IMG/VR virus record: IMGVR_UViG_3300011115_000470
Coordinates: 1-41,032 of that record
Direction: 5' to 3' (one strand)
Source: a virus
DNA length: 41,032 nt
This document shows, piece after piece, positions 31,114-40,020 of the stretch. The translations under genes were made by a program, and so were the position numbers. Position 1 is the stretch's first letter, and the number at the start of each line of letters is the position of its first letter. Below the pieces are notes generated by a model. The model saw only the letters and a list, made by a program, of their open reading frames with translations. It had not been told where the DNA came from and did not search any database.

Positions 31114-31323
31114 ATGACACTGAATGAATTTTTTGAAACCAAGCCGCGAGGAGCGAAGCTGGCCATGGCCACCAAGCTTGGCGTGAGCAAGACGTGGATG
31201 AGCCTCGTCATCTCCGGGCGGGCGCTGGCCAGTCCTGAGCTGAGTGGGGCCATCGAGCGCTACACCAAAAGGCAGGTGAAGCGCACAACTTTACGGCCCG
31301 ACATCTTCGGAGACCTAAAGTGA
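31114..31323 (+). CDS. YdaS/Cro-like DNA-binding regulator
   Basis: 69 residues. ATG 31114 with AAAGGATGACC upstream. The protein has an N-terminal helix (LNEFFETKPRGAKLAMATKL) and the helix-turn-helix segment G-V-S-K-T-W-M-S-L-V-I-S-G-R-A, followed by S-P-E-L-S-G-A-I-E-R-Y-T-K, a pattern of YdaS/Cro-like antirepressors. It is the first gene of the early operon and directly adjoins the two divergent promoters, so it probably controls them. The product ends in D-I-F-G-D-L-K. No cI-type repressor is seen in the window. Confidence 0.8.
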   Translation: MTLNEFFETKPRGAKLAMATKLGVSKTWMSLVISGRALASPELSGAIERYTKRQVKRTTLRPDIFGDLK

Positions 31324-31985
31324 TCTGGTACAAATTCCACCTTGGTGACTACATCACCCACACCACGCATCTTAGCGATGCAGAAGACTTGGCCTACCGC
31401 CGTCTGTTGGATTTGTACTACGTGAGCGAGAAGCAAATCCCACTCAATACCGAATCGGTTTCGAGAAAAATACGCATTGATTTGGACATAACCGAATCGG
31501 TTTTGGGGGAGTTTTTTGAAAAGACAGAAAACGGCTATTTCAACCATCGTTGTCATGTCGAAGTGGCTAAATATCAAGCACAAGTAGCGAACAATCAACG
31601 ACTCGGAAAACTAGGCGGTCGCCCGAAGAAAACCGAATCGGTTAGCGAATTGGAACCGAATGGTAACCCTAAGAAGATAAAGAATAAGATAAATACCATT
31701 ACGTCGGTTGCACCGACAACATCACGATTTGACGACTTTTGGTCAGCTTGGCCATCATCAAAACGAAAAGTCGCTAGATCGGCCTGTGAGACGAAATGGA
31801 CGCGTCAAGCACTAGACCCCTTGGCAGACAAAATTATCGCCTGCGTGACCCGTTTGCGGGCCTCTGAGCAGTGGGTTTCGGGGTTTGAGCCTGCTCCACT
31901 TACGTTCATCAACCAAAAGCGCTGGGAAGATGAGTCAGGAACCGATTCGGTTAACGGTTCGGTTTTTTCTCGGAGGGTGATATGA
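31320..31985 (+). CDS. DUF1376 replication protein (YdaU-like)
   Basis: 221 residues from GTG 31320, overlapping the regulator stop (GTGA). Residues 1-90 match DUF1376: W-Y-K-F-H-L-G-D-Y, then DLAYRRLLDLYYVSEKQIPL, an N-terminal winged-helix often in phage replication initiators. After a Lys-rich linker comes a C-terminal domain (DDFWSAWPSSKRKVARSACE; APLTFINQKRWEDES) common in helicase-loader/primosomal phage proteins. The gene carries repeated ACCGAATCGGTT sites and an AT-rich stretch, so it may both encode the initiator and contain its origin. CHC2 primase and helicase genes lie downstream. Confidence 0.8.
   Translation: MIWYKFHLGDYITHTTHLSDAEDLAYRRLLDLYYVSEKQIPLNTESVSRKIRIDLDITESVLGEFFEKTENGYFNHRCHVEVAKYQAQVANNQRLGKLGGRPKKTESVSELEPNGNPKKIKNKINTITSVAPTTSRFDDFWSAWPSSKRKVARSACETKWTRQALDPLADKIIACVTRLRASEQWVSGFEPAPLTFINQKRWEDESGTDSVNGSVFSRRVI
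31449..31964 (+). other. Candidate replication origin: iteron-like repeats in initiator gene
   Basis: The 12-mer ACCGAATCGGTT lies at 31449-31460, 31491-31502 and 31632-31643; a T variant, ACCGATTCGGTT, lies at 31941-31952. Weaker copies are at 31654-31664 and 31953-31964. A reversed arm pair, TCGGT then ACCGA, is at 31704-31716. Between them 31671-31699 is AT-rich (AAGAAGATAAAGAATAAG). Arms are inverted repeats around one base. Lambda has iterons inside its O gene, so this arrangement has precedent. No origin activity has been shown here. Confidence 0.6.
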
Positions 31986-32239
31986 CACGCGACAACATCA
32001 TCCGCATGGCAATAGAGGCGGGCTGGGATGCCCATTATGCTGAGTTTGATGCACGCATTCAAACCTTGGCCACCCTTGTGATTGCAAACCACCCACCGCA
32101 GTCGTTCATGACATGGCAAGTGGGTTACGAGGCTGGTAAGCAGGCCGAACGTGAGGCTTGCGCGAAGCTGTGCGAAGCGCAGGGGGAGTACGGCTGGCAG
32201 CAATACGCCGAGGCCATCAGAGCAAGGGGAACACCATGA
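31982..32239 (+). CDS. Small phage protein (REACAK family)
   Basis: 85 residues, coupled to the replication gene by ATGA. It starts M-T-R-D-N-I-I-R-M-A-I-E-A-G-W-D, has a middle A-Y-E-A-G-K-Q-A-E-R-E-A-C-A-K-L-C-E helix and ends A-I-R-A-R-G. It is related to the protein at 40652-40882. Similar proteins are common in phages of Burkholderiales; function unknown. Confidence 0.65.
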   Translation: MTRDNIIRMAIEAGWDAHYAEFDARIQTLATLVIANHPPQSFMTWQVGYEAGKQAEREACAKLCEAQGEYGWQQYAEAIRARGTP

Positions 32240-32670
32240 CCCCAGTCGAAAACTTGATCTCGCGTTTGGACAAGGTCAAAGGCCGTAACGGTTCATGGAC
32301 CGCCCGCTGCCCAGCACACGCCGACAAGGGGCCTTCCTTGGCCGTTCGTGAGGGTGAGGATGGCCGAGTGCTGCTGCACTGCTTTGCAGGCTGTGAGACC
32401 GCCAACGTGCTTGGCGCGATAGGCATGGACATGACCGACCTGTTCCCGCCTGACAGCAAGCGCCGCGAGTACCCGGTCGAAGGCAAGCCCAGCATGAAGC
32501 CCGCGTTCTTTGCCAGTGACTTGATGCGCATCATTCACTTTGAGGCGTTGGTGGTGCAGATTGTGGCTTTTGACATTGCCAACAGCAAGCCAGTGAACGA
32601 AGAGACCCGCGAGCGCATGCTCACGGCATACCAGCGAATTGATGAAGCAGTGAGGTACGCAAATGTCTAA
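32236..32670 (+). CDS. CHC2-type zinc-finger primase fragment
   Basis: 144 residues from ATG 32236 (ATGA overlap). The zinc site is C25-P-A-H28 with C49-F-A-G-C53 (ARCPAHADKGPSLAVREG; LLHCFAGCE), as at the start of DnaG-like and phage primases. The polymerase and TOPRIM domains are missing; the remainder is a helical tail (about 85-144). It may guide or regulate primer synthesis with the helicase that follows and overlaps, or it may be a degraded primase. Host DnaG could do the catalysis. Confidence 0.75.
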   Translation: MTPVENLISRLDKVKGRNGSWTARCPAHADKGPSLAVREGEDGRVLLHCFAGCETANVLGAIGMDMTDLFPPDSKRREYPVEGKPSMKPAFFASDLMRIIHFEALVVQIVAFDIANSKPVNEETRERMLTAYQRIDEAVRYANV

Positions 32671-33673
32671 CGTGGCAGCAATTGAGCAAAGGGCACGCGC
32701 CCTCGATCAGGCCCGCAAGGTGCGGTTGGTGAAGTCGCAAGACATTGACACCGAAAAATATTTGAAGGCTCACGACGTGACCCACAAGGTCCACGAGGCG
32801 TCGGTTTGGTTGGAAGAGTTGCAGCAGGAGCTGGTCAACCCACTTGAGCGGGACGTGAGCACCACCATGCCGTGGGCGAAGACGCATGCGACGTTCAGGT
32901 TCCGCCCCGGCGAGGTGACCCTGTACGCAGGCAGCAACGGCGGCGGCAAGTCCTTGGTGACGGGTCAAGTGGCCATGGGCTTGATCAAGCAAAAGCAGCG
33001 CGTGTGCATTGCCAGCTTTGAGATGAAGCCCAAGCGCACGCTGTACCGCATGCTGCGCCAGTTCGCTGGTGAGAACATTGACTTCCCGCGTTACACCGAC
33101 AAGGCCACCTACATTGGCCGCCTGCTTGGCCGTTTCATCGACTACTCAGAGCAGGGCCTGTGGCTGTACGACCAGCAGGGGACCACCTCGAGCCAGCAAG
33201 TGATTGCCATGGCTCGGTACTGCGCAGTTGAGCTTGGCGTGCAGCATGTGTTCATCGATAGCCTGATGAAGTGCGTGACGGGCGAGGACGACTACAACGC
33301 GCAAAAGAATTTTGTCGACGAGTTGACGGCGCTGGCGCGTGACCACAACATCCACATCCATTTGGTTCATCACATCCGCAAGTTGGGCAGCGAAGAGATG
33401 CAACCAAGCAAGACAGACATCAAAGGCTCGGGTGCGATCGCTGACCAAGTCGATAACGTGCTGCTCATGTGGCGCAACAAAAAGAAAGAGCACGACATTC
33501 AGAATGGCCAGATCCCTGATTTAAAAAAGCCTGACGCCTTGCTCATGTGCGAGAAGCAGCGCAACGGTGAAGCCGAGGAGTGGTACAGCCTTTGGTTCAA
33601 CCGCGACAGCCAGCAGTTTGTGGATGAGAGCGGCGGGCTGCCAATGTCGTTTGACAATCGAGGTGCATTTTGA
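32663..33673 (+). CDS. Replicative DNA helicase (DnaB/RecA-fold)
   Basis: 336 residues, overlapping the primase fragment by 8 bases. The RecA-like core starts about residue 78 with Walker A G90-S-N-G-G-G-K96-S97. Walker B is VFIDSL (D199), followed by H-L-V-H-H-I-R-K and K-G-S-G-A-I-A-D-Q-V-D-N-V-L-L-M-W-R, which matches the DnaB/T7-gp4 helicase motifs and the arginine-finger region. The N-terminal 75 residues are helical. It probably unwinds DNA at the phage fork and pairs with the replication protein upstream. No primase catalytic domain is fused. Confidence 0.85.
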   Translation: MSNVAAIEQRARALDQARKVRLVKSQDIDTEKYLKAHDVTHKVHEASVWLEELQQELVNPLERDVSTTMPWAKTHATFRFRPGEVTLYAGSNGGGKSLVTGQVAMGLIKQKQRVCIASFEMKPKRTLYRMLRQFAGENIDFPRYTDKATYIGRLLGRFIDYSEQGLWLYDQQGTTSSQQVIAMARYCAVELGVQHVFIDSLMKCVTGEDDYNAQKNFVDELTALARDHNIHIHLVHHIRKLGSEEMQPSKTDIKGSGAIADQVDNVLLMWRNKKKEHDIQNGQIPDLKKPDALLMCEKQRNGEAEEWYSLWFNRDSQQFVDESGGLPMSFDNRGAF

Positions 33674-37214: not shown

Positions 37215-37227
37215 TTTAAAAAAGCTG

Positions 37228-37254
37228 TTGACTCGTTTAATTTGGTGTTACACT
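37228..37254 (+). promoter_or_regulatory. Promoter cassette A (GTTTAAT-N6-TTACACT)
   Basis: TTGACT (37228-37233) and TACACT (37249-37254) preceded by TGT as an extended -10; spacer 15. GTTTAAT (37235-37241) and TTACACT (37248-37254) match cassettes B and C. Leader ends CACAGAAAGACAGCGAA before the ATG at 37308. Confidence 0.75.
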
Positions 37255-37307
37255 ACATGCACTGACCAAGCAATACCGCACAGTCAGAACCACAGAAAGA
37301 CAGCGAA

Positions 37308-37769: not shown

Positions 37770-37787
37770 AAGCGAAAGGAAAGCGAA

Positions 37788-37961
37788 ATGGATTCATTCA
37801 CAGCAACAGGCATCGCAGAGGGCTTCATTGAGGCCGACAGCGAAGAGCAAGTCATCGAGGCATGGCAGACCCTTGTGGACACTGGCCTCGCATGGCAACT
37901 TCAAGGCTGGTTCGGTCGCACGGCCCAGCAACTCATCAACCAAGGTCTCATCACAGCGTAA
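37788..37961 (+). CDS. 57-residue DUF7417-like early protein
   Basis: ATG after GGAAAGCGAA, a leader resembling that of the cassettes. The sequence [31 protein letters not shown] matches a small phage protein family (I believe DUF7417), with L-Q-G-W-F-G-R-T-A near the end. Function unknown; it is common in phages of this type. Confidence 0.65.
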
Positions 37962-39028: not shown

Positions 39029-39055
39029 TGGCACCGTTTAATTCGGTGTTACACT
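39029..39055 (+). promoter_or_regulatory. Promoter cassette B (GTTTAAT-N6-TTACACT)
   Basis: TGGCAC (39029-39034) is a weak -35 and TACACT (39050-39055) the -10, with TGT before it and a spacer of 15. GTTTAAT is at 39036-39042. The following leader has ACCACAGAAAAGAAAGCGAATC before ATG 39100. Confidence 0.7.
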
Positions 39056-39099
39056 ACAAACACTGCACCACCGCAGCACCACAGAAAAGAAAGCGAATC

Positions 39100-39912: not shown

Positions 39913-39942
39913 GTCCCAATAAAAATAAATTTACAAAGGGGC

Positions 39943-39976
39943 TTGACAACCTCTTTGTTTAATGTAGAATTACACT
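39943..39976 (+). promoter_or_regulatory. Promoter cassette C (GTTTAAT-N6-TTACACT)
   Basis: TTGACA (39943-39948), 16 bp, TAGAAT (39965-39970). GTTTAAT (39957-39963) and TTACACT (39970-39976) repeat the cassette spacing, here overlapping the -10. The leader is followed by GAAGGACAGCGAA before ATG 40021. Confidence 0.75.
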
Positions 39977-39978
39977 CA

Positions 39979-39999
39979 GACACCAAACATCTTGGTGTC
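39979..39999 (+). promoter_or_regulatory. Inverted repeat, candidate operator or leader hairpin
   Basis: GACACCAA (39979-39986) and TTGGTGTC (39992-39999) are perfect inverted arms around ACATC. TTGGTGT also occurs in promoter cassette A and, as TTTGGTGT, in the early rightward promoter. It could bind a repressor or fold in the leader RNA. Confidence 0.6.
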
Positions 40000-40020
40000 G
40001 TAACAGAGAAGGACAGCGAA

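Follow-up and report, generated by a model that had tools for sequence, protein, structure and literature searches.

A probable replication origin embedded in the linker of a phage DUF1376 gene

The DUF1376 gene of the virus fragment analyzed here contains a cis-acting element that is probably the phage replication origin, lying within the gene that encodes its putative initiator in the manner of lambda O and SPP1 gp38. The fragment, hereafter the window, is the IMG/VR record IMGVR_UViG_3300011115_000470 in its whole length of 41032 bases. A first-pass annotation had proposed a candidate origin spread over 31449-31964 of this gene. That proposal is supported by frozen codons and by the layout of the region, from which we infer origin activity, and it is refined in extent: the core of the element is 31632-31717, in the linker between two protein domains (Table 1). 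Iterons, an AT/purine-rich tract and a hairpin follow one another within a gene of initiator type that precedes primase-like and DnaB-like genes; this layout, together with the replication-gene neighborhood, matches a gene-embedded origin.

Table 1. Features of the putative origin and the surrounding replication genes in the window
Feature	Position	Strand	Remarks
YdaS-like small DNA-binding protein gene	31114-31323	+	Upstream of DUF1376 gene; PF15943, 37.7 bits (cut-off 30)
DUF1376 gene	31320-31985	+	Proposed initiator of 221 aa with GTG start; disordered linker between N-domain and C-domain
Palindrome ACCGAATCGGTT	31449-31460		Apparent accessory site, partly conserved
Palindrome ACCGAATCGGTT	31491-31502		Codons almost invariant; synonymous identity 0.98
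Iteron array	31632-31660	+	Half-sites ACCGAA at 31632, AGCGAA at 31644, ACCGAA at 31655
AACCCTAA	31665-31672	+	Kept in 49/49 representatives, in two reading frames
Purine/AT-rich tract	31673-31697	+	Candidate DNA unwinding element; codons frozen
Hairpin GTCGGTTGCACCGAC	31703-31717		Many relatives have other self-complementary versions
Palindrome ACCGATTCGGTT	31941-31952		Near gene 3' end; degenerate copy at 31953-31964; conserved in some relatives
Primase-type zinc-finger gene	32236-32670	+	phrog_6088 DNA primase, 6e-16; PF01807 just under cut-off
DnaB-like replicative helicase gene	32663-33673	+	PF03796, 3.8e-18

Genes in this part of the window run in the order YdaS-like, DUF1376, zinc-finger primase-like and DnaB-like helicase. 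The DUF1376 gene product matches PF07120 with 69.3 bits (3.7e-19), above the gathering score of 30.1, and this is its sole Pfam match: a lambda O-type N-terminal DNA-binding domain is absent, in agreement with the earlier suggestion that the initiator belongs to a family other than lambda's O. Its PHROG matches bear the names primosomal and replication initiation protein; its viral matches are other DUF1376 proteins and some proteins named replisome organizer. The AlphaFold2 model comprises a confident N-domain, a linker predicted to be disordered (residues 100-132) and a C-domain. Modeled elements of the N-domain (helices at 8-15, 20-36, 44-51 and 55-65, a short beta pair, then a helix at 76-95) come in an order that fits a winged helix. 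Sequence and fold searches of the PDB returned nothing significant, although several of the non-significant fold matches of this domain were winged-helix regulators; since those matches were not significant, DNA binding by the N-domain is presumptive. The closest genome matches were to a Limnohabitans MAG contig (76% identity) and a betaproteobacterial MAG contig (56%), which makes a freshwater betaproteobacterium the probable host.

Farther along the window, three intergenic stretches (37215-37260, 39030-39062 and 39940-39980) carry similar promoter-like sequences (TTTAATTTGGTGTTACACTACA, TTTAATTCGGTGTTACACTACA and TTTAATGTAGAATTACACTCAG) and probably form a family of early promoters. AGCGAA also stands immediately 5' of several start codons (AAAGCGAAATG, ACAGCGAAATG; near 37303, 37780-37790, 39092 and 40014-40019); it is close to the iteron half-site variant AGCGAA and is possibly a component of a ribosome-binding leader.

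Repeats in the DUF1376 gene are far above chance and restricted to that gene. The palindrome ACCGAATCGGTT was found, as first reported, in three exact copies (31449-31460, 31491-31502 and 31632-31643), along with the T-centered version ACCGATTCGGTT at 31941-31952 and the weaker copies AACCGAATGGT at 31654-31664 and AACGGTTCGGTT at 31953-31964. The three main copies do encode T-E-S-V with identical codons and a weaker copy does lie in a different frame, the half-site at 31655 being read out of the frame of the main copies. When at most one mismatch was allowed, the 12-mer ACCGANTCGGTT gave eight strand-wise matches, all inside the DUF1376 gene, versus 0.45 expected; none of 100 shuffles reached eight. 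The 13-mer AACCGAWTCGGTT occurs in the window only at 31490, 31631 and 31940. Three palindromes (31449, 31491 and 31941) appear to be accessory sites, the second of them 141 bp upstream of the half-site array.

Conservation within the linker applies to the half-site A[CG]CGAA, repeated every 11-12 bp (about one helical turn), and not to the full palindrome alone; the first half-site of the array sits within the full palindrome at 31632-31643. No other such array occurs in the window, and none was found in resampled sequence. The AT-rich stretch previously placed at 31671-31699 is present, with its limits now drawn slightly tighter (Table 1). Relatives substitute other hairpins for that of the window (e.g., GTCGCAAGCGAC, TCGTCGAAATTCGACGA and GTCGACTGCGTCGAC), and some are without one.

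Comparison among close relatives provides the main evidence that this DNA matters as DNA. An IMG/VR scan yielded 80 relatives, from which 49 genes of <95% nucleotide identity, the window's included, were taken as representatives. Their codons at 31491-31502 scarcely vary (ACC 48/48, GAA 48/49, TCG 46/46, GTT 48/49). Pairwise synonymous identity was 0.98 at this palindrome and 0.89 across codons 103-129 (31626-31706), compared with 0.58 in the remaining gene (linker versus remainder, Mann-Whitney p = 7e-11), and codons 103-129 are frozen though the residues vary. Across the 40 genomes with both genes, the best 27-codon window reached 0.88 in the DUF1376 linker versus 0.65 in the helicase gene, which has no block comparable to the frozen linker. 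In 47 of the 49 representatives AACCCTAA lies 32-33 bp downstream of the first A[CG]CGAA half-site; in the other two, the first half-site is altered or an extra half-site stands ahead of it. Half-sites are mostly spaced by 12 + 11 bp and sometimes by 11 + 11 bp.

The reading frame of the linker is shifted in six representatives, giving the peptide LTL in place of NPK, and the AACCCTAA DNA is unchanged. Retention of this word despite the change of frame argues for selection on DNA, and no other single argument for a DNA function is as strong. The first-pass annotation had claimed selection on DNA rather than on peptide and had suggested comparing conservation with synonymous drift: the TESV codons do not vary freely among relatives, the opposite of the pattern that would speak against the claim, and both the frozen codons and the survival of AACCCTAA bear it out. 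As judged from these alignments, the linker of the DUF1376 gene is shown to be under DNA-level selection and to have a DNA-level function.

Members of the Pfam family DUF1376, which has no assigned function, occur in phages of many hosts, and none of the papers searched linked the family with an origin of replication. Records from IMG/VR, phages and genomes supplied 68 diverse DUF1376 genes (<65% protein identity). In their linkers, AACC words at a 7-bp spacing number 195 versus 2.7 in codon shuffles, and AACC words are spread over the three reading frames (164/140/144); since 7 is not a multiple of three, the linker peptide (NHKPITN etc.) is a translated 7-bp DNA repeat. Class-specific palindromic repeats lie 5' of the AACC heptamers (ACC[CG]AnnCGGT, AACGnnCGTT, CACGAAWCGTG, GCGAACGC), and hairpins 3' of the tract exceed their frequency in codon shuffles (p = 1.6e-8), with p = 0.38 and 0.09 for control regions. 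The Methylophilaceae phage P19250A has three copies of the repeat CAACGGGCGTT in its DUF1376 gene and no further copy in the rest of the genome at ≤1 mismatch. The window's clade keeps AACCCTAA, and a purine-rich tract substitutes for the AACC heptamers. Relatives with the C-domain only had 3 AACC pairs at 7 bp versus 0.7 expected, far below the DUF1376 set; because these relatives lack the tract, it goes with the DUF1376 N-domain. Iteron class, assigned by regular expression, agrees with the nearest N-domain (0.79 vs. 0.35), a descriptive figure since the classes were defined after viewing the sequences, and one to be expected from linkage within one gene. Lag-11 autocorrelation was dropped as evidence for helical phasing in the diverse linkers: the helical N-domain behaves likewise (z 15 vs. 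26), and z is unreliable because amphipathic-helix periodicity and shared ancestry inflate it.

When whole records were searched, many relatives proved to have additional palindromes at two places downstream of the DUF1376 gene, roughly 8-9 and 11-12 kb away. The nearer of these two loci, locus B, is a leader, often 38-60 bp ahead of a small conserved gene (MAERIYIV...), and carries AGCGATCCGAA-AGCGAAGAGAA-ACCGAATCGGTTTCG, an 11-bp repeat of which some relatives have degenerate copies only; the genes for TerS and TerL come after it, placing it at the head of the packaging operon. When five near-complete relatives were searched for three or more half-sites in series at 11/12 bp, such arrays were found only in the DUF1376 linker and at locus B, about 9 kb downstream of the DUF1376 gene, apart from one extra array in one genome, versus 0 in resampled sequence. 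The window has no second array because the fragment ends before locus B. An AT-rich element was not evident at the second array when the leader sequences were read by eye.

An extra array outside both common loci was seen in one relative (L086:8050; G015:C1:41049), with three AGCGA half-sites at 11/12 bp. Several genomes also have a single palindrome in the N-terminal part of a long gene after TerL; in six relatives (L085:6978-10454, L086, L087, L088, L092 and L100) ACCGATTCGGTT lies near the start of such a gene and encodes ETDSV/GTDSV.

The sites could alternatively be operators, and not an origin, at which a regulator of the phage, whether the YdaS-like protein or a repressor, governs transcription of the replication and packaging operons, although we regard this as unlikely. 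A dimeric repressor would suit the palindromes, including those outside the core and in the post-terminase gene; the YdaS-like gene adjoins the DUF1376 gene, and the second array occupies a leader just 5' of the small gene and the terminase genes. However, the conserved block lies in the middle of the gene, the likely promoter upstream of 31114 has no site nearby, and operators have no need of AACCCTAA, the purine/AT-rich tract or the hairpin. Other DUF1376 phages, moreover, retain the layout with different iterons. Ranked lower still, as improbable, is a role of the arrays in partition (parS/parC-like) or as a DNA-packaging signal for another phage protein, e.g., the small terminase. The 11-bp direct repeats resemble parC-type arrays and the second array adjoins TerS, but no partition gene was found among the window proteins scanned (part of the ORFs), and a packaging signal would explain neither why the array in the replication gene is the most conserved nor why DUF1376 phages have this layout in common. 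That the repeats merely reflect a low-complexity coding linker (TES/NPK/NHKPITN) retained for the sake of the protein, its codon bias mimicking DNA repeats, is scarcely credible: the main copies are in frame, encoding TESV, and the linker is predicted to be disordered, but this explanation is already contradicted by codons frozen while residues vary, by DNA words that persist over frame changes, by 7-bp repeats in all three frames of diverse genes and by the half-site array in the non-coding leader.

GC skew, put forward earlier as a check on the origin, did not single out the expected position in the window, where the cumulative minimum lies near 16 kb, not 31.5 kb. In four of five near-complete relatives the minimum is no more than about 1 kb from the DUF1376 gene, which is weak support because genes switch strand here (those upstream in the window are on the other strand). 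We rejected skew as proof of an origin on account of this confounding and of its absence in the window fragment.

By analogy, the origin proposed for the window would work like those of lambda O and SPP1 gp38, though by its N-domain the initiator is not of the O family. In lambda, the origin lies in gene O, comprises iterons with inverted symmetry and an AT-rich region, and is placed between the DNA-binding and helicase-loader-binding domains of O (PMC6022878). Lambda O still complements after small in-frame deletions in the AT-rich region (PMC6022878), consistent with the linker mattering as DNA. The window element shares the location inside an initiator-type gene, the palindromic iterons, the adjoining AT-rich region and the interdomain position. 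It differs in the DUF1376 N-domain, in half-sites at 11-12 bp and a conserved AACCCTAA instead of lambda's four 18-bp iterons, and in that the window phage encodes its own helicase. In SPP1, oriL lies within gene 38, and some 13 kb separate it from oriR in the late region, both with direct repeats and AT-rich DNA bound by gp38, and fork stalling at gp38-bound oriR has been proposed (PMC6316719). The second array in near-complete relatives of the window virus, about 9 kb off at the packaging operon, is likened to SPP1 by layout; the host group and the iterons are different, and no AT-rich element is evident at the second array.

In the mechanism that we propose, the DUF1376 N-domain would bind the palindromes and half-sites as a dimer, and the bound protein would multimerize, straining the AT-rich tract open. 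The C-domain would then aid loading of the DnaB-like helicase, encoded 0.7 kb downstream, and the linker peptide between the two domains would be largely a by-product of translating the origin. We infer that the DUF1376 protein is the binder, both here and, in relatives, at the second array ahead of the terminase genes, and that this array may act as a late origin or a fork barrier, as proposed for SPP1 oriR.

YdaU of the Escherichia coli Rac prophage is also a DUF1376 protein, encoded in the gene order ydaS-ydaT-ydaU-ydaV. As in the window, a YdaS gene lies upstream of the DUF1376 gene and the linker contains repeats: four 14-mers at 33, 33 and 12 bp, plus inverted copies (L405:6972-7078; NC_000913.3 ~1421471-1421577). 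Unlike the window, ydaU has an iteron of the AGATGTTCAA type. AACC heptamers are absent from its linker. The C-domain of YdaU (residues 173-285; gene at L405:6620-7477) matches Gifsy-1/2 and SPN3UB homologues of replication protein O, whereas the N-domains differ; sequence comparison suggests that initiator domain and linker/origin may have been exchanged as one unit. Rac is stated to possess an active origin, oriJ (PMC3945230). We predict that oriJ lies inside ydaU, with the 14-mer linker as its candidate position.

A broader reading, which we hold tentatively and rate somewhat below even chances, is that DUF1376 proteins are widespread, unrecognized phage initiators that each carry their own origin in the linker (class-specific palindromic iterons, an AACC repeat or purine-rich tract, and a hairpin), the linker peptide being merely translated origin. 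In the window's clade the initiator would also bind the second array, coupling late replication to packaging, and in Rac oriJ would lie within ydaU. If this is true, the DUF1376 family would gain a function as origin-binding initiators, and phage origins would become locatable by sequence across many genomes. The odd low-complexity linker would be explained as origin DNA that is translated along with the gene, and a simple test in E. coli K-12 would be where the Rac origin lies.
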